The translations under genes were made by a program, and so were the position numbers. Positions 4,572-35,275 of a stretch of 64,000 nucleotides of DNA are shown here, piece by piece (position 1 is the first letter of the stretch; each line of letters opens with the position of its first letter). The notes below the pieces were generated by a model, which did no database searches, had not been told where the DNA came from, and saw only the letters and a list, made by a program, of their open reading frames with translations. The stretch is taken from contig NZ_JAFCIY020000023.1 of NCBI RefSeq assembly GCF_020194955.2, positions 186,001 through 250,000 of the forward strand. The letters are read 5' to 3'. The stretch comes from Desulfuromonas sp. CSMB_57. Lineage in GTDB: Bacteria; Desulfobacterota; Desulfuromonadia; Desulfuromonadales; Syntrophotaleaceae.

Positions 4572-4732
4572 TGTCCCGTGCGGTTAGTCCTGTCTTCAAA
4601 TTCCGGCCCTTTTGGTCGCCGGCTGCGTTCCGCCTTCTCGGCTTAACTCTGGCTAGGCCTGCGTCGGCGCGCCTTGCCGACAACCAAAATCTCTCAGAAT
4701 TTCTTGACACGACTAACCGTACGAGACACTAG
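4568..4732. mobile_element. MITE-like non-autonomous element with 22-bp terminal inverted repeats
   Basis: The left end 4568-4589 starts CTAGTGTCCCGTGCGG and the right end 4711-4732 is its inverse complement with two mismatches in 22 positions. The total is 165 bp with no coding frame. Each end has TA at its boundary (cTAgtgtc and gacacTAg), which fits the TA target preference of IS630/mariner-type transposases, although no transposase is in the window. The interior has a GTCGGC/GCCGAC hairpin. The left end contributes the stop codon of the winged-helix gene. Confidence 0.7.
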
Positions 4733-4780
4733 CCGGGGTCAGGGGGGAATGGGGCATCCGGATTTTTCGCATGGATATCA

Positions 4781-4805
4781 CAGGGGCGAACAAAGTTCGC
4801 CCCTG
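4781..4805 (-). terminator. Stem-loop downstream of mdh
   Basis: CAGGGGCGAAC, loop AAA, GTTCGCCCCTG: a perfect 11-bp stem with a 3-nt loop, 33 bp past the mdh stop. There is no strong T-tract on the minus strand, so termination may be rho-assisted or the structure may protect the 3' end. Confidence 0.5.
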
Positions 4806-4838
4806 CCGGAGATGGGTCGGACGCCGTAGATGGAATTT

Positions 4839-5798
4839 TTACAGCCTGGGCAGACTGTCTACCAGTTTTTTCACCTCCGCGACGGAATGATGGAAAAGCT
4901 GCCGTTCCTCATCCGTCAAATCGAATTCCACAATCTGCTCGACTCCGCCGGCCCCCAGTACGCAGGGCACTCCGACATAATAGCCTTGTACCCCGAACTG
5001 GCCTTCCAGCAGGCAGCAAACCGGCAGTAGTCGTTTCTGATCGTGCAGCACTGCTTCCACCATGGCCAGGGCACTGGCGGCCGGCGAGACGAAGGCGCTG
5101 CCGGTGCGCAACAGATCCACCACCTCGCCGCCCGCATTTTGGGTGCGTGCCACCAGTTGCGTCATGACCTCCCGGGCCCGGCCCTCGTCCCCGTACTTGC
5201 GGGTCAACAGGTCCAGGACCGGAATGCCGTTGACATTGGCAAACCGCACGATGGGAACCATGGTGTCGCCATGCCCGCCCAGCACCATGGCCTTCACATC
5301 CCGTACCGATACGCCCAGTTCCCAGGCAATGAAGGTGGCGAAGCGGGCCGAGTCCAGAACTCCGGCCATGCCCATGACGCGATGGGCCGGAAAGCCGGTC
5401 AGGCGCTGGCACAGGGTGACCATGGCATCCAGAGGATTGGACAGCACGATGACGACGGCTTCCGGTGCATGCTGACGAATGCCGGCGGCGACGGCGGCCA
5501 TGATGCGGGCATTGGTTTCGACCAGGTCCTCGCGGCTCATGCCCGGTCTGCGCGGCACCCCGGCGGTGACCACGACGATGGCCGCACCGGCAATGTCCTC
5601 CAGGCGGTTGCTGCCCGTCAGGCGGATATCGAAATTTTCCACCGGCCCCGCCTGGGCCAGATCCAAGGTCTTGCCCTGCGGCAGGTCGGGAACGATATCG
5701 TACAGGACAACATCGCCCAATTCCCGCAAGGCCGCCAGGGTGGCCATGGTGCTGCCGATCTGGCCGCCGCCGATCAGGGCGATTTTCGGTTTAGCCAT
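4839..5798 (-). CDS. mdh: Malate dehydrogenase, LDH-like type
   Basis: A 319-residue NAD-dependent malate dehydrogenase (malate to oxaloacetate). The start [19 protein letters not shown] is the Rossmann GxGxxG NAD site. Later [17 protein letters not shown] gives the substrate-binding arginine loop, and [11 protein letters not shown] holds the catalytic histidine. I chose the ATG at 5798 because TGGAGT precedes it and the NAD motif follows at once; the open frame extends 15 codons further upstream without support. It lies downstream of icd on the same strand, and the 101-bp gap is filled by a 9-copy heptamer repeat, so the two TCA-cycle genes are probably co-transcribed through the repeat. Confidence 0.95.
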
Positions 5799-28132: not shown

Positions 28133-28627
28133 GGGACTCTCGCAGGGTTGACCCATCCGGAGGCTTGGAATGGGCCACGCCGGCACGGACCAAGGGGAGT
28201 CAAGGTGATGCGGGATGGCATCCTGGCTTCGGACTTGACCGGCATCATCGGCATTGGGGGATGCCCCCATGGTCGGCCGCCAAGGCGGATTCATAATTAT
28301 GACAGGCTACGGTTTGGAACATTTTTTGTCACGACCTCCGCGTGTTATGACGAATGCGATGGCTGCCGGTTGCCGCGTCGGATGCCGGAAGCCGGCCATG
28401 GTGAGCGGTGTTGAATGCAATATGTTTAACTAAAATTCCTGCAAGTTGTGGGCCGTTATCGGCTGTCGTGGTGCGATACGGAATCCGGCCAGCCTTTTTG
28501 TCCCACGGGGGCGGTAGGCCTGGTCGAAGGCAAAACGGTTGCTCGGCCCCGAACCCTGTGCTAGGCTTGGAAGCCGTCGTGGAGGCGGTTGAAGCGAGGT
28601 TTTCACGTTTGCAAAAGCGGGGATCGA
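28133..28627. other. Divergent intergenic region
   Basis: About 495 bp between the REC-GGDEF-EAL gene (minus) and tlyA (plus). It holds a 12-bp palindrome TCATAATTATGA at 28291-28302 and a promoter candidate for tlyA at 28539-28567. Open frames here have no ribosome site and no recognisable product. I see no RNA gene. Confidence 0.5.
28539..28567 (+). promoter_or_regulatory. Candidate sigma-70 promoter of tlyA
   Basis: TTGCTC (28539-28544), 17 bases, TAGGCT (28562-28567), about 60 bp before the TTG start. Confidence 0.35.
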
Positions 28628-29374
28628 TTGGGCCACAAAGAGCGTTTGGACAAGTTGCTGGTAACCCGCGGTCTGGCCGCATCCAGGGAGCGGGCACGGG
28701 CCTTGATCCTGGCAGGTCAGGTAGTGGTCGACCAGCATACCCTGGACAAAGCCGGAGCGCAGGTGGCTCTGACCGCCGACATCCGTCTGAAGGGCGAAGA
28801 TCTCCCCTATGTCAGTCGGGGCGGGTTGAAACTGGCCGGCGGGCTGGATGCCTTTGACATTCCGGTGGCGGGCCGCGTGGCGCTGGACGTGGGCGCTTCC
28901 ACCGGCGGTTTTACCGATTGTCTGCTGCAGCGCGGCGCGCAGCGGGTCTATGCGGTAGACGTGGGATACGGCCAATTGGCCTGGCAACTGCGCCAGGATG
29001 CCCGGGTCATCAATCTGGAGCGCACCAATATTCGTCATCTGCAGCCCGGCCAGTTGCCGGAACGTCCCGATCTGGCCGTCATCGATGCATCCTTCATCTC
29101 CCTGGACAAGGTGCTGCCGCCGACCCTGGCGCTGCTCGCCGACAGGGCCGAACTGGTGGCCCTGATCAAGCCGCAGTTTGAAGTTGGACGCGGCGCGGTG
29201 GGCAAGGGGGGGGTGGTGCGGGACCCCGAGCAGCATGCCGAGGTGGTGGCCCGGATCTCCGCTTTGGCCGCGGGCCTCGGCTGTGCGGTGCTGGGGATGG
29301 TGGAAAGTTCCATTCTCGGCCCCAAGGGGAACCGGGAGTTTCTCATTCACCTGCGCAAGGGAGAGGCCCGATGA
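28628..29374 (+). CDS. tlyA: TlyA-family rRNA 2'-O-methyltransferase
   Basis: About 248 residues. The N-terminal S4 RNA-binding domain is ERLDKLLVTRGLAASRERAR. The FtsJ-type SAM domain has VALDVGASTGGFTDCLLQRG, AVDVGYGQLAW, DLAVIDASFISLDKVLPP and LIKPQFEVGRGAVGKGGVV, all typical of TlyA, which methylates cytidines of rRNA in species where it was studied. I chose the TTG at 28628 (reading GHKERLDKLL) after GGGGA; the frame continues upstream to another TTG. It overlaps the next gene by 4 bp (ATGA) and heads a seven-gene plus-strand run. Confidence 0.93.
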   Translation: MGHKERLDKLLVTRGLAASRERARALILAGQVVVDQHTLDKAGAQVALTADIRLKGEDLPYVSRGGLKLAGGLDAFDIPVAGRVALDVGASTGGFTDCLLQRGAQRVYAVDVGYGQLAWQLRQDARVINLERTNIRHLQPGQLPERPDLAVIDASFISLDKVLPPTLALLADRAELVALIKPQFEVGRGAVGKGGVVRDPEQHAEVVARISALAAGLGCAVLGMVESSILGPKGNREFLIHLRKGEAR

Positions 29375-30129
29375 ACCGCGTCTGGTTTGTCGGCGCCGGG
29401 CCGGGGGATCCGCAACTTCTGACCCTGCGCGGCGCCCAACTGCTGCAGCATAGCCGGGAGGTGTTCGCTTTTCCTCCCTTCGGGGAAACCTTTGGCGCGT
29501 TGCTGGAGGGAAAAACCATCCGGGATCCCTTCGACTATTCTTTTGCCGGGCTGCTGGATCTGCTGCACTCCCTGCTGCAGCATGGTGAAGTGGTCTTCCT
29601 GGTGCCTGGGGACCTGGCATTTTTCTGCCCGTTTCAACCCCTCATCGATGCCTTGGGCGAGGGGGCGGCAGTCGTTCCGGGGGTGGGCAATGCCAACGCT
29701 GCGGCCGCCGCCCTGAAGCGCACCCTAAATCTTTCCGGTGTTTGCAGCCGTACCGTTTTGGTTTCCGGCCGGCACCTGGCGAAACATCCCGACGGTCTGC
29801 AGTTACCTCAATTGTGCGGCCCCGGAACCACTCTGCTGCTCTACATGAATACCCTGCCGGTGACCGAACTGGTGGCGCAGTTGCATCGCGGCTACGGCGG
29901 CAACGTGCCTATCGCCCTGCTGCACCGCCTTGGTCTGCCCGGTGAGGACATTCTCGTGGCCGATTTGGACAGTCTTGTCCGGCGCGTCGCCGGACGCGAT
30001 TATTTTGCCATCTCCGGTGCCGTACGCAGTTCCCTGACCCTGATTGTCGCCGGCGAAGCCCTGACGGCGACGGCCGATGAGATCTGGTGGGATCAGCGGG
30101 CGGCATGCCGCGGGGAGTTGGAGTCGTGA
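29371..30129 (+). CDS. Orphan tetrapyrrole (corrin/porphyrin) methylase family protein
   Basis: A 252-residue SAM-dependent methylase fold. The N-terminus VWFVGAGPGDPQLLTLRGAQ is the family's GxGxGD signature. EVVFLVPGDLAFFCPFQPL and AAVVPGVGNANAAAAALKR match the second and third conserved blocks (compare CbiF/CobM, which methylate C11 of precorrin-4). Residues 110-150 diverge from CbiF and the protein is not among cobalamin genes, so the substrate is unknown; RNA- or DNA-related neighbours suggest a non-corrin role is possible. The start overlaps tlyA by ATGA, implying coupled expression. Confidence 0.75.
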   Translation: MNRVWFVGAGPGDPQLLTLRGAQLLQHSREVFAFPPFGETFGALLEGKTIRDPFDYSFAGLLDLLHSLLQHGEVVFLVPGDLAFFCPFQPLIDALGEGAAVVPGVGNANAAAAALKRTLNLSGVCSRTVLVSGRHLAKHPDGLQLPQLCGPGTTLLLYMNTLPVTELVAQLHRGYGGNVPIALLHRLGLPGEDILVADLDSLVRRVAGRDYFAISGAVRSSLTLIVAGEALTATADEIWWDQRAACRGELES

Positions 30130-30226: not shown

Positions 30227-31333
30227 GTGATTCGCATATTGCATAGCGGCGACCTGCACCTGGAAGCGCCCCTGGCGGAATGGGGCGCTTCGGCGGCAGC
30301 GCGTCGCGAGGATTTCTGGGCCGCCTTCGAGACCCTGTTGGCACTGGCCGCACGGCACCGGGCCCATCTGTTGCTGCTGGCAGGCAATCTGTTCCATTCG
30401 CCGCGACCGACCGCCGCTGCCGTCGAACGGGTTCGTACCGGTCTTGATGCCCTGCGGGAGCAGGGGACTCATGCCGTGCTGTTGCCCGGCAGCCACGACA
30501 GCCTGCTGGTCGGTGATTCCGTGTACCGCGGCGAAGCATTTCCCGGCAGCACCGTGTTGCGCTCCGCTCCGCAGCCGGTCCCGCTGCAGGTGGGCGAGCA
30601 CCGGGTCTGGCTGTATGGCCGGTCCCGTTTCGGACTGGGTTCCGGTGCTGCAGAGGGCGGGCTGAACCGGAGCGATGCAGAGGGCTTTCATATCGGCCTG
30701 GTGCACGAGCCGGAGGGCTCCGCGCCGGGTTCCTCGGTCCTGCCCGCGTCCGAAATTCGACGCTGGGGGCTCGACTACGTGGCCGGCGGCTATGCCCGGC
30801 GGATGCAGGAACTGCAGGATGACGGCGAAATTCTAGGTTGCTTGGCCGGGTCTCCGGAAGGTCGCGATTTTCGGGAGTCGGGGGTGCGCTGCGCGGTGCT
30901 GGCCACCGTGGGTGGACCGGCGACAGGCATTGAAACTCTGACTACCTGCCGACGGCAACTGACCGAACGACACCTGGACCTGAATGGCTGCGACAGTCAG
31001 GCTGATGCTTTGGAGAAGATTTTCGCCCTGGCCGACGGGGAACTCCTGTTGCGGCTGACCCTGACCGGTCAGGTGGAAACGCCCCTGGATTGCGGCGCGC
31101 TGACCATGGCCGCCGCGGGGAAATTCCATTATCTGCAGCTGCAGGACCAGACCGAGTTTGTCGGCGGCCGGTTGGCCCATCGGCTGGCCGCCGGGAACGA
31201 TTTTCAAGGTTTGCTGGTGCGCCGCGCGCAGGAGCTTTGGAAACGGGTGGAGGTCAAGCAACGGCCGGTAGTGGATGCCGCGCTACGGGAACTGCTGCTG
31301 CGCACCGGCCTCCGGAACGGGGGCGAGTCATGA
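30227..31333 (+). CDS. SbcD-like metallophosphoesterase with altered active site
   Basis: About 368 residues, starting at GTG 30227 after GGGAG. The fold of Mre11/SbcD/YhaO nucleases is recognisable: LHSGDLHLEAP gives D9 and H11 of motif I. The other motifs are degraded. Motif II, normally GD, is AGNLFHS (Asn54). Motif III, normally GNHD, is PGSHDS (Ser89). Motif V, normally GHxH, is GGYARR near 188-192. H160 of motif IV remains. The second metal site is therefore probably lost, and the protein may bind DNA without cutting it, or use different chemistry. Its stop overlaps the following YhaN-like ATPase gene as ATGA, as expected for a two-subunit complex. Confidence 0.8.
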   Translation: MIRILHSGDLHLEAPLAEWGASAAARREDFWAAFETLLALAARHRAHLLLLAGNLFHSPRPTAAAVERVRTGLDALREQGTHAVLLPGSHDSLLVGDSVYRGEAFPGSTVLRSAPQPVPLQVGEHRVWLYGRSRFGLGSGAAEGGLNRSDAEGFHIGLVHEPEGSAPGSSVLPASEIRRWGLDYVAGGYARRMQELQDDGEILGCLAGSPEGRDFRESGVRCAVLATVGGPATGIETLTTCRRQLTERHLDLNGCDSQADALEKIFALADGELLLRLTLTGQVETPLDCGALTMAAAGKFHYLQLQDQTEFVGGRLAHRLAAGNDFQGLLVRRAQELWKRVEVKQRPVVDAALRELLLRTGLRNGGES

Positions 31334-33438
31334 GGCTGCGACGTCTCGAGGTTCGACATTTCGGCAAGTTCGAAAACCTGTCCGTGGAATTCGGCCCGGG
31401 CATGAACCTTCTCTATGGAGCCAATGAAGCGGGCAAGTCGACCCTCGTTGCAGCGGTCTCCGCAATCTTCTGCGGAGCCGCTGCCGGTCGGCCGTTCCGG
31501 CCCTGGAATGGTGCCGGTCCGACCAGCGTCGCCCTGCTGTTGGAAGATGGGCAGGGCGAGCTCCTGTTGCGGCGCGATCTGGCGTCGGGGCAGTTGGATT
31601 GGCAGGCCCTCGATGGCCGGGGGCAGGCATTTGGGCAGGTACGTCTGACGGACGACCCGCCGGGCCGCCGGCAGTTGCATGAACTGTGGGCGGCTCGGCT
31701 GGGCTGCGCGTCGGCCCTGGTGCCGCTCTGTCTGCAGGCCGTGGCGGAATCTGCTGCCCGTCCGGGACTCGAGACGCCCCTGGGCCGGACCGACGGCGCC
31801 CCGGACGGGGTCGATGGCCGACAGCTCGAGCAGGCCCTGGCCGATGACTATCTGGCCTTGACACGGCACAATTCCTGGGGCTGGTCGGCCCCGCGGGATG
31901 GCGCTCTGGATATTCTGGCCGGGCAGTTGGAAGCCGTGGAAAAGGAATGGTATCAGGCCCGGCAGGCCGCCAAGGAACTGGCCCGACTGCAGGCCCGGAT
32001 AGCCGATCTGGCGGCGGAATTGGATCAGGACCGTCACGATTACGCCCGCGGAGCATCGCTGCTGTCCCATCTTCGGGGATCGGATGTCGAGGGCGAAGAG
32101 GAAGCGCCCGAGGTGTGGCTGGCGAACGCGGGCAGTCGTCAGGAACTGGAGCGCGAATTGGCCAAAACCGGCTTGCCGCGGGAATTGCCGCCGGGATTGC
32201 CGGACCTGCTGGACGAGTCCGAAGCGCTGCGCCAAAAGTTGGTGGTGCTGCAGCGCGAGGAGGCCGGTCTGCAGGAGCAACTGCGCCGCCATACCCTGCC
32301 TCCCTGGCGGCGTCTGGCCGGGTGCCTTGGTGCCGCCTGGGTTCTGGCCCTGCCGGCAACCTGGTTGAAAATGCCCGGACATATGGTTTTGTTGGTGGCC
32401 GTAGGCCTGGCCAGCGCGGCTGCCGGGGGGTTTTTCGGTTGTCGGTGGCGGCGTCTGCATGCCTGTCGCCGGCAGTTGAAACAGCCCAGGCAGAATATCG
32501 AGCAGCAGCGCAGCGAACTCCACGAACAACGTCAGGATCTGGAGGAGCGCCTGGAATGTCTCGGGCTTTCGGCGGCCCCCATCGAATTGGTGCGCATGCG
32601 CAAAAATCTCCCCCGCCACCGTGCCCTTCTGGCGGAACTGGCGGCTCTCGACGAGGGGCCGAAAGAGGCAAATGGAGCACTGGATGACGCCATTCCGGAG
32701 TCTGGGCCGGCCGTCGACGCCGGACCCCACGAAATGGATCTGGCGGTGGCGGAGCAGCAACTCGAGGAGTTCGGTGCCGGGATTCGTCGCCGTGAAGGGG
32801 AACTGCAAACGCTCCAGAAACAGGCAGAGACACTGCAGTCGGCCTGGGCGGCCCTGCCGGCTATCGAGGAGCGGGGGGAAATCCTGCGGGACGAGGATCT
32901 GCGCCTGCGCCGGCGGCGGGATGTGCTTGCCACGGCCATGGACCTTTTGCGCGGAACCCTGGCCGAGGTGCAACAGGCCGATGGGGAGGAGTTGGCGGTC
33001 GCCATCGGCGATTGTCTGGAGCGGCTCAGCGGCGGTCGCCTGAACCGGATCCGGCTCGATGGAGAAGGTCTGTTGCAGTTGGCCGATGCCGAGGAGAGCT
33101 GGCATCCCCTGGAACAGTTCAGCCGGGCCGTTCAGGAAATAACCGTTCTGGCGACGCGCTTGGCCCTGGTCCGGTTGGCGCGGCCCACTGCGCCGCCGGC
33201 CCTGCTGCTCGATGAGTCGCTGGCCTGTTTCGATCGCAACCGGCGCAGTGAACTGCTGCGGGTTCTGGAAGGGATGGCGGAGGGACAGCAATTCATTGTC
33301 TGCAGTCATGACGAACAACTGAAACGACGGGCCGAGCGGGAGGGCTGGACGGTGATCCGCCTTGCTGCCGCCCGCCGCGTGGCCACCGGATCGCGTCCGG
33401 AAAGGAGGCAGGATGACGGACAATTGTCTTTTCTGTAA
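31330..33438 (+). CDS. YhaN/SbcC-like AAA ATPase with coiled coils and two membrane helices
   Basis: A 702-residue SMC-type ATPase. Walker A is YGANEAGKSTL (residues 29-39), and the C-terminal Walker B is ALLLDESLACFD (about 623-634), with D-loop-like CFDRNRRSE. Between them are Glu/Arg/Leu coiled-coil stretches (about 195-325 and 375-580), broken by two hydrophobic helices (about 328-346 and 351-370), as in YhaN of Bacillus and unlike SbcC. The signature region FSRAVQEITVLATRLALVRL departs from the usual LSxGxx form. It pairs with the SbcD-like gene upstream by an ATGA overlap. A membrane-tethered DNA-repair or nucleoid role is inferred from family only. Confidence 0.82.
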   Translation: MRLRRLEVRHFGKFENLSVEFGPGMNLLYGANEAGKSTLVAAVSAIFCGAAAGRPFRPWNGAGPTSVALLLEDGQGELLLRRDLASGQLDWQALDGRGQAFGQVRLTDDPPGRRQLHELWAARLGCASALVPLCLQAVAESAARPGLETPLGRTDGAPDGVDGRQLEQALADDYLALTRHNSWGWSAPRDGALDILAGQLEAVEKEWYQARQAAKELARLQARIADLAAELDQDRHDYARGASLLSHLRGSDVEGEEEAPEVWLANAGSRQELERELAKTGLPRELPPGLPDLLDESEALRQKLVVLQREEAGLQEQLRRHTLPPWRRLAGCLGAAWVLALPATWLKMPGHMVLLVAVGLASAAAGGFFGCRWRRLHACRRQLKQPRQNIEQQRSELHEQRQDLEERLECLGLSAAPIELVRMRKNLPRHRALLAELAALDEGPKEANGALDDAIPESGPAVDAGPHEMDLAVAEQQLEEFGAGIRRREGELQTLQKQAETLQSAWAALPAIEERGEILRDEDLRLRRRRDVLATAMDLLRGTLAEVQQADGEELAVAIGDCLERLSGGRLNRIRLDGEGLLQLADAEESWHPLEQFSRAVQEITVLATRLALVRLARPTAPPALLLDESLACFDRNRRSELLRVLEGMAEGQQFIVCSHDEQLKRRAEREGWTVIRLAAARRVATGSRPERRQDDGQLSFL

Positions 33439-33760
33439 AATCATCGCCGGAGCGATTCCGGGAAAAATCGTTCATCAGGATGAAGAGTTGGTGGTGTTCG
33501 AAGACATCGCGCCGCAGGCCCCATTCCATTATCTGATTGTGCCCCGCAAACATATTCCGACCACTCTCGATATGGCGGAAGTCGATGAGGCTCTCATCGG
33601 CCGGGTCTTCCGCCTCGCGGCGCGCCTGGCCCGGCAAATGGGCTTTGCCGAGGAGGGCTTCCGGGTGGTGAACAATTGCAATGCCGGGGCCGGGCAGACG
33701 GTCTGGCATCTCCATTTCCATTTGCTGGGGGGGCGCAAGATGACCTGGCCGCCGGGTTGA
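33413..33760 (+). CDS. HIT family hydrolase
   Basis: A 115-residue histidine-triad protein of the Hint branch (purine nucleoside phosphoramidase-like). NCLFCKIIAGAIPGKIVHQD is the N-terminal part, HYLIVPRKHIPT the middle, and GQTVWHLHFHLLGGRKM the catalytic HxHxHxx. The ATG at 33413 follows AAAGGAGG and lies 26 bp inside the end of the ATPase gene, so translation is probably coupled. Confidence 0.95.
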   Translation: MTDNCLFCKIIAGAIPGKIVHQDEELVVFEDIAPQAPFHYLIVPRKHIPTTLDMAEVDEALIGRVFRLAARLARQMGFAEEGFRVVNNCNAGAGQTVWHLHFHLLGGRKMTWPPG

Positions 33761-33826: not shown

Positions 33827-35275
33827 GTGGACCACGATTACGACCAACAGAAACAGCGACGCCTGATCAACGAAATCCTGGAGTTGCTGGTCACCCATTA
33901 CGGCGGCGGCCTGACGGAAGAGGAGCTGGATAAGGAGCTGGCCTCCCTGTCCCGTGCCATCGAGTTTGCCGCCGCGGCCCATGAAGGGCAGTACCGCAAA
34001 TCGGGGGAACCCTTCTTCATCCATCCGTTGCGGGTCGCCCACCTGGCCGCCCGTTATTGGATGGATTTTGCTTCGATTACCGCTTCGTTGCTGCACGATG
34101 TGGTCGAAGACACTCCGGTCACCCTCGAAGAAATTCGGCAGCAATACGGCGAGGAGGTGGCCCGCCTGGTCAATGGTTTGACCAAGGTTTCCGCCGAGGA
34201 ATTCAGCCGGGATGCCCTCAAGACCGAGACCTACCGCAAACAGTTGCTGCTGGCCATGGAAGATGTCCGGGTGCTGTGCCTGAAATTTTGGGACCGGGTC
34301 GACAACCTGCAAACCATCAGCGCCCTCAACCCGCAGAAACAGGCCCTTATCGCCCAGGAAACCCGCACCGTCTATGTCCCCCTGGCGCGGCACCTGGGCA
34401 TGGGTTACGTGGCCTCGAACCTCGAAGCCCTGTCCCTGCGCATTCTCTACCCGGCTCGTGCCAGCCGCTATCGTCGTACCGTGCAGTCGTTGCGCACCCA
34501 GGTGGAACCCCATCTTCGTAAAGTTCGGGCAGAGATCAACCAAACCTTCGAGCATCACAAACTGTCCGGTACCCTCAAGGATCGCTGGCGGCCCTTTTCC
34601 ATCGCCGCGACCCGGGCCATGAATCGGGGCCTTTCCAGCCTCTATACCCTGGAAATCCAGGTGGCCCGCACCATGGATGTCTACCTGGCGCTGGGGGTGG
34701 TGCACGGTTTGTATCTTCCCATCCCGGGCAAATTGCGGGATCATCTCACGGTCCCATCCCCCTTCGGCTATCAGGCCCTGAAGACGACGGTCCAAGCCGG
34801 CGAGCATCGTCTGCGCATCGAGATTACCACCCATAAGCTGGCCCGCTTCAACGAAGCCGGGGTGTTGACCCCCGGTTTCGAATTCCGGCGCGACAATTTC
34901 AAGGATCTGATGAATTCCCTGTTGGAAGGGGAGTCGGCCTTCGACACCGAGAGCCTCAAGCTGGCGGCGGCCACCATCCAGGTTTATACCCCCCAGGGGG
35001 AAATCTGCACCTTGCCCGAGGGCAGCAGCGCCCTGGACTTTGCCTTCGCCATCCATGAAAAGGTCGGCCTGTTCGCCTGGCGCGCCCGCATCAACGGCCA
35101 AACCCGATTGCTCAAATCACGCCTCATGGACGGCGATCAGGTCGAAATCGAACGCAGTCTCAACCCCATGGTCATGCCCAAATGGCTCGAATGGTCCGTA
35201 ACCCCCCGGGCCCACAACCACATCCGCCGCTATCTGCGCAGCAAGGTCAAGGACAGCACCGGCGGCGACAAGTAA
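33827..35275 (+). CDS. RelA/SpoT homologue with intact HD part, degraded synthetase part and TGS
   Basis: A 482-residue protein, shorter than the ~720 residues of Rel/SpoT because the C-terminal part after TGS (including ACT) is missing. The HD hydrolase has [12 protein letters not shown] and [13 protein letters not shown] near residue 88, and [11 protein letters not shown] in place of KLADRLHNMRT. The synthetase region (about 250-345) keeps [20 protein letters not shown], but the RxKSxxS ATP loop is replaced by DRWRPFSIA and EIQIRT by EITTHK, so (p)ppGpp synthesis is doubtful. TGS is [19 protein letters not shown]. It may be a (p)ppGpp hydrolase or sensor. The GTG start at 33827 follows AGGAG. 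Confidence 0.82.

Follow-up and report, generated by a model that had tools for sequence, protein, structure and literature searches.

Can a protein of the SbcD/Mre11 nuclease family that has lost metal-binding residues still belong to a working complex? This question is raised by a yhaO/sbcD-like gene of Desulfuromonas sp. CSMB_57, which lies in the 64,000-nucleotide stretch of DNA analyzed here (the window) and overlaps the gene of a Rad50-like ATPase. The names yhaO and yhaN presumably follow those of the Bacillota pair of B. subtilis. The original prediction, made from the sequence alone, described an intact gene that overlaps its ATPase partner and encodes substituted nuclease motifs, and its open reading frame, coordinates, and residue numbers proved exact. 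The frame is open over 368 codons with no stops or frameshifts, the overlap is the 4-base ATGA, and Asn54, Ser89, and Gly-Tyr-Ala-Arg at 188 to 191 were all verified (Table 1). Motif I and the motif IV His had been said to remain, and Asp9, His11, and His160 were found to be kept. An upstream ATG (30077) was rejected as the start because the orthologous proteins start at the residue encoded by the GTG, and His155, which distant relatives do not conserve, was rejected as the motif IV ligand in favor of His160.

Table 1. Features of the yhaO-yhaN locus in the window, and doubly dead pairs elsewhere
Feature	Position	Strand	Remarks
tlyA-type rRNA methyltransferase	28589..29374	+	Conserved flank upstream of locus
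Tetrapyrrole-methylase-family gene, flank	29371..30129	+	
yhaO/sbcD-like gene	30227..31333	+	GTG start, TGA stop, 368 aa; phosphoesterase domain, capping domain, C-terminal two-helix region
Motif I LHSGDLHL	30239..30262	+	Asp9, His11 kept
Motif II AGNLFH	30380..30397	+	Bridging Asp54 replaced by Asn; aligned to AGDLFH of solved archaeal Mre11
Motif III GSHD	30488..30499	+	Ser89, Thr in 35/38 intact relatives; His90, Asp91 kept
Motif IV LVHE	30698..30709	+	His160 kept
Motif V GYAR (188-191)	30788..30799	+	His189 replaced by Tyr, His191 by Arg
Two C-terminal helices, residues 326-340 and 343-359	31202..31303	+	DSSP on predicted model
yhaN/rad50-like ATPase partner	31330..33438	+	702 aa, ATGA overlap with yhaO
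Walker A GANEAGKST (YhaN)	31417..31443	+	Intact
ABC signature SRAV (YhaN)	33121..33132	+	SRGT in most intact relatives, aligned to Rad50 SGGE; Gly replaced by Ala
Walker B LLLDE (YhaN)	33202..33216	+	Intact
HIT-domain gene, flank	33416..33760	+	
RelA/SpoT-like gene, flank	33827..35275	+	482 aa; strong HD domain, weak RelA_SpoT synthetase match (29.3 bits, 77 residues)
Doubly dead Mre11-like + Rad50-like pairs	L177:3977-7580, L239-L267, L268-L287		Order around Desulfosporosinus

The Metallophos profile of Pfam matched the window YhaO at 27.1 bits (cut-off, 21.5), and the NCBIfam sbcd profile TIGR00619 gave 43.8 bits, under its cut-off of 77.65. The latter is a weak test, since a second, separate SbcD-like gene of the same genome, with canonical motifs, scores just 56.5 bits. 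At positions 9, 11, 54, 89, 90, 91, 160, 189, and 191 the window protein reads DHNSHDHYR, compared with DHD(T)HDHHH. Matches at an E value of 1e-40 or better were found in 57 of 277 genomes of the class: 40 have intact motifs, 15 have a broken metal center, and the other two are G056 and G010. The order-wide alignment took in 38 of the 40 intact genomes; left out of these 38 intact full-length relatives were G056, which has intact motifs and a broken frame, and G010, which is cut by a contig end. The canonical-motif yhaO of G056 (L039) is split over two frames by either a true frameshift or an assembly error. DHDTHDHHH is the reading in 35 of the 38, position 89 being Asp in two and Asn in one (GTHD, GDHD, or GNHD), and no change at position 54, 189, or 191 occurs among them. 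The other two intact genomes, G156 and G162 (loci L141 and L139), have GTHD with the remaining eight positions unchanged.

Thr at motif III is therefore normal among these YhaO relatives, and Ser89 is by itself no loss. The original prediction had counted four of the five motifs as altered, whereas the actual number is three (II, III, and V); of the change from GNHD to GSHD, the residue stands, but the loss of catalysis read from it does not, since Thr is usual there and His90 and Asp91 are kept. The motifs align cleanly in 20-row and 56-row alignments, the sole nearby gap lying before His160 (G044, two extra residues), and no replacement set of ligands that might restore the metal sites is apparent in the alignment. 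The sequence gives good support to an Mre11/Rad50-like pair without nuclease function, since motif II has lost its Asp and motif V its two His. This backs the first part of the predicted "non-nuclease or otherwise changed" complex; a changed complex is something that we infer.

The profile search found homologous Mre11-like loci in several phyla. Among the 63 loci beyond the Desulfuromonadales set (L145 to L207), four depart from the canonical residues at one or more of the eight catalytic positions, and the sole heavily degraded one is L177, from a Desulfosporosinus MAG, with five of the eight changed. Across L128 to L207, 74 of the 80 loci read DHDNHDHHH or DHDTHDHHH. GTHD stands in place of GNHD in 29 of these 80, with the other positions intact, and is also found in Chloroflexi, Armatimonadota, and others; the GTHD loci make up a YhaO subgroup with Thr at the usual metal ligand. 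At L170 and L180, the first His of motif V is replaced by Asp (GDWH), resembling the change in Mimivirus R555 described in an excerpt of PMC3175470.

The window YhaO is predicted with confidence to have the Mre11 phosphoesterase and capping fold. An AlphaFold2 model made from 20 sequences has a mean pLDDT of 86.6 and a pTM of 0.84, and the best 50 PDB matches listed for it are all Mre11 or SbcD. In a second structural comparison, ranks 1 to 39 are Mre11/SbcD chains with Z scores of 22.9 to 19.3, covering mostly residues 1 to 311. Few structural alignments reach the C-terminal helices (3av0_A to residue 347 and 7yzo_B to residue 345, with most ending at about 311), and VIA-align rows rarely extend over them. 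We take these helices to occupy the place of the Rad50-binding helix-loop-helix of Mre11, and their role in binding Rad50/YhaN is putative.

The loss is not confined to the window genome, since the centers of a sister genus (g2) and of a further family, f18, are broken too. The 15 broken centers are those of the window, four g2 genomes (G001, G009, G011, and G013), and all ten matched f18 genomes. Asp54, His189, and His191 are lost in the window, His90 and His189 in g2 (with His160 in two of the four), and mostly His11, Asp54, His90, His189, and His191 in f18. The motif string in g2 is DHDRSDHGH, DHDQNDYGH, or DHDGSDCGH, and those of f18 are different again. When relatives were checked for the same substitutions, as had been suggested, the broken centers thus recurred, but the exact replacements differed. 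Relatives with canonical residues had been put forward as a sign of sporadic decay; 40 of the 57 class genomes have them, yet the loss extends beyond one genome. Two more g2 genomes, G004 and G007, carry yhaO remnants under the match threshold, which leaves two of six g2 genomes without the phosphoesterase domain. The remnant of G004 (L043, minus strand, about 4701-4997) has 98 codons and a single in-frame deletion of residues 28 to 298, which took most of the phosphoesterase and capping domains. In G007 (L108:4111-4338, minus strand), a 75-codon ORF has a yhaO-like start (MIRISYTADLHFG) and end, and its middle gives no confident alignment to yhaO. Both remnants overlap the start of a full-length yhaN, that of G007 by ATGA.

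An RpoB tree of 25 genomes, ten of them with dead yhaO (G009, G013, and others lacking full-length RpoB are not included), places the window and g2 in one clade (100/99) within family f1 (96/90), where the genera g3 and g4 have intact centers; f18 stands apart. The branches of this tree demand two changes for the dead state, and forcing every dead row into one clade costs 10.6 log units (AU p 0.068). In the YhaO tree every dead row falls on one side (96/96), as do the dead rows in the YhaN tree (83/90), both with long branches flagged. Two independent losses, one in the window lineage with g2 and one in f18, are probably a better account than one; a single origin is disfavored by RpoB, the AU value being no firm rejection.

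Dead and intact yhaO genes sit at the same conserved locus in the same gene order. The tlyA flank is present at 17 of 17 dead loci and 36 of 40 others, the HIT flank at 16 of 17 and 33 of 40, and the RelA-like flank at 16 of 17 and 28 of 40; several loci are short, and G010 and G056 are counted among the 40. The ATGA overlap of yhaO and yhaN was found at 12 of 16 dead and 35 of 39 other loci measured. A match to a separate SbcD-like gene also occurs in 12 of the 16 other dead genomes, the motifs having been read for the gene of the window genome; the search of the 17 dead genomes found none in four (G004, G078, G081, and G087).

Pfam profiles SMC_N, AAA_27, and AAA_23 match the window YhaN above their cut-offs, and the best PDB match of the YhaN profile is Rad50. 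With its Walker A and B motifs intact, the protein would probably still be able to bind ATP; engagement and turnover are doubtful with the Gly lost from the ABC signature, which was assigned by alignment to the SGGE of Rad50. The FRASLFFGQG segment of intact relatives, which from its position we take to be the Q-loop, is unrecognizable in the window, where LVPLCLQAV stands in its place and a Gln may remain. The YhaN model (pLDDT, 75.9; pTM, 0.42) is unreliable at residues 110 to 161 (pLDDT below 50). Across the seven window and g2 genomes, YhaN is full length (702 to 722 aa) with Walker A and B in all seven, the signature Gly is lost in six (kept in G009), and the FRASLFFGQG segment is degraded in all. 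All ten f18 partners keep Walker A and the Gln of the FRASLFFGQG-type segment, and of the nine that have a C-terminal half, all keep Walker B and eight keep the SRGT signature (SRAT in G044).

Pairwise dN/dS (Nei-Gojobori) was obtained for full-length yhaO genes of at least 79% identity, comprising 5 dead and 21 intact pairs. The dead pairs gave 0.129, 0.131, 0.146, 0.164 (f18), and 0.251 (G011-G013), and the intact pairs ranged from 0.044 to 0.166; the five dead pairs are under purifying selection. No close relative of the window gene was found in the sets searched, so the pairs do not include it. For G011-G013, yhaO (0.255) and yhaN (0.269) compare with 0.035 for tlyA, 0.053 for the RelA-like gene, and 0.123 for the methylase gene, and the retained part of the G004 remnant gave 0.29 against G013, 0.31 against G011, and 0.39 against G001. 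Erosion was compared over 69 near-invariant columns, 8 in the active site and 61 elsewhere. The window protein differs at 3 of the 8 columns in the active site and at 11 of the other 61 (Fisher p 0.35); this is no enrichment, and its losses thus accompany general divergence. The corresponding cells that differ are 10 of 32 and 61 of 244 in g2 (p 0.52) and 52 of 80 and 196 of 610 in f18 (p 2e-8, for cells that are not independent). Since the enrichment is seen in f18 alone, it seems to be catalysis in particular that f18 has lost, whereas in the window clade constraint seems to have slackened in general. The fraction kept of seven conserved C-terminal YhaO columns is 0.57 in the window, 0.54 in g2, and 0.90 in f18.

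The L177 protein has matches in 43 of the 73 genomes of the order around Desulfosporosinus. Thirty of the 43 matches were read, the other 13 including G323 and G324 (34 to 36% identity) and G331, and the counterparts of Asp9, His11, His90, and His191 are missing in all 30 Mre11-like loci. A partner gene is present at 19 of the 21 loci read for one; none was found by the genes of G323 and G324. No Walker A pattern occurs in any of the 19 partners, and in the 18 with a readable C terminus the Walker B strand ends in, for example, LLFSIG, without the acidic pair; the partner in G289 is cut at a contig end and stands outside the count of C-terminal motifs. Some pairs are fused in one frame of about 1,060 to 1,190 aa, and at each of the three fused loci that were read, the partner has a shortened N-terminal part or none. 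The dN/dS values are 0.15 to 0.27 for the Mre11-like genes (seven pairs) and 0.20 to 0.27 for the Rad50-like genes (three pairs). This dead pair is conserved and is independent of the window lineage. Such a pair can therefore be kept widely in an order, being conserved here without nuclease residues or a P-loop.

How, then, is the window gene to be explained? That YhaO is an ordinary active enzyme, with misaligned motif calls or a sequencing artifact, is very improbable. The motif III change is indeed largely a family trait; however, the clean alignment of the motifs in both alignments speaks against misalignment, and the broken centers of the four g2 sequences, which come from separate assemblies, speak against an artifact. 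Altered chemistry, in which Asn54, Ser89, Tyr189, and Arg191 would form a one-metal or metal-free center for another substrate, is also improbable, if less extremely so. Asp9, His11, His90, Asp91, and His160 remain, so that the first site might still take up one metal, but the replacements vary among g2 and f18, unlike those of a selected new active site.

Slow decay is a serious rival, because the partner in the window lineage has lost its signature Gly and the erosion is not concentrated at the active site. On this account the pair ceased to be of selective value in the common ancestor of the window genus and g2, both genes drift under weak constraint, and the yhaO frame is kept mainly by translational coupling to yhaN. 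The general erosion in both the window and g2 fits this account, as do the dN/dS values of both genes of G011-G013, which are raised over the flanks, and the loss of the signature Gly in six of seven clade genomes. The altered partner also suits decay together with the shedding of most of yhaO by two g2 genomes, G004 and G007, where the phosphoesterase domain is gone and the start of yhaN is still overlapped. However, yhaN is full length with both Walker motifs in all seven genomes of the clade, dN/dS values of 0.25 to 0.31 (G011-G013, and the G004 remnant against G011 and G013) are far under 1, the window gene has 368 open codons and a confident predicted fold, and the f18 and Desulfosporosinus-type pairs are dead yet constrained. 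We regard decay as possible and, on balance, doubtful. We lean modestly toward YhaO being a pseudonuclease that survives as the structural and regulatory subunit of YhaN, in a nuclease-free Mre11-Rad50-like scaffold. Speaking for this reading are the confidently predicted Mre11 fold, the missing metal ligands, the overlapped partner gene, the shared locus and gene order, the broken centers of g2, the purifying selection on other dead members, and the dead pair of the Desulfosporosinus lineage; the general erosion in the window and g2, the raised dN/dS of G011-G013, the domain lost by two g2 genomes, and the less well kept C-terminal columns of the window and g2 speak against it. YhaO would dimerize and bind YhaN through its C-terminal helices, and the complex would bind, tether, or mark DNA, or bridge the YhaN heads, without cutting, and cleavage would fall to the other SbcD-like gene that the genome carries. 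The window complex would likely be a static or slow clamp, since its YhaN probably binds ATP but has lost the signature Gly. More widely, because residues are lost recurrently while the gene and its partner stay, dead pairs may hold or regulate DNA instead of cutting it.

We take D56 of yeast Mre11 to be the motif II Asp. According to an excerpt of PMC2625443, neither yeast Mre11 D56N nor H125N shows endonuclease activity in vitro, yet both form the complex with Rad50 and Xrs2, and E. coli SbcCD H84Q is described in an excerpt of PMC6265447 as nuclease deficient with its ATPase down only about 15%. These engineered dead alleles are like the window protein in having lost the nuclease, the yeast proteins keeping the complex and that of E. 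coli most of its ATPase. On this analogy, the window protein would be expected to keep its hold on both YhaN and DNA but not to cut. Unlike in the engineered alleles, the loss here is natural and common to several genera.

The window pair resembles Mre11-Rad50 and SbcD-SbcC in its predicted fold over about residues 1 to 311 (Z, 19 to 23), its Rad50-like partner, and its adjacent overlapping genes, but differs in being without Asp54, His189, and His191, in scoring under the SbcD cut-off, and in having a partner without the signature Gly. With YhaO-YhaN of Bacillota it shares a short Mre11-like protein and an AAA_27-type Rad50-like ATPase, whereas 74 of 80 such loci keep one of the two canonical strings given above. 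Catalytically dead phosphoesterase scaffolds are already known elsewhere. The inactive B subunits of eukaryotic replicative polymerases, compared with the active small subunit of archaeal PolD, retain an Mre11-like phosphoesterase with catalysis lost; they belong to another complex and serve as an analogy only. VPS29 of retromer likewise uses a phosphoesterase fold as a protein scaffold and is no active metallophosphatase, judging from titles cited in PMC7539009, but it has another partner and another process, so that the comparison is one of working principle only. The Mimivirus R555 Mre11/Rad50 fusion also joins an Mre11-like domain with one motif V His replaced to Rad50; it differs in that the excerpt of PMC3175470 names a single missing nuclease residue, in the C-terminal part, replaced by Asp. 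No paper on a naturally dead bacterial SbcD or YhaO was among the matches listed in open-licence PubMed Central.

Dead Mre11-Rad50-like pairs could be a recurrent functional class, apparently with three origins (the window lineage, f18, and Desulfosporosinus), that serve as DNA or chromosome scaffolds without a nuclease and, in Desulfosporosinus, also without the ATPase P-loop. We hold this claim tentatively, being almost evenly divided and leaning slightly against it. The pairs form a graded series that runs from the intact pair through a dead nuclease with a near-canonical ATPase (f18) and a dead nuclease with an altered ATPase (the window lineage) to a trimmed remnant with an ATPase (G004 and G007) and a pair in which both are dead (the Desulfosporosinus lineage). 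Mre11-Rad50 is usually read as a nuclease, and natural, conserved versions that are free of nuclease would let the scaffold role be studied apart from cutting, a separation that evolution would already have made.
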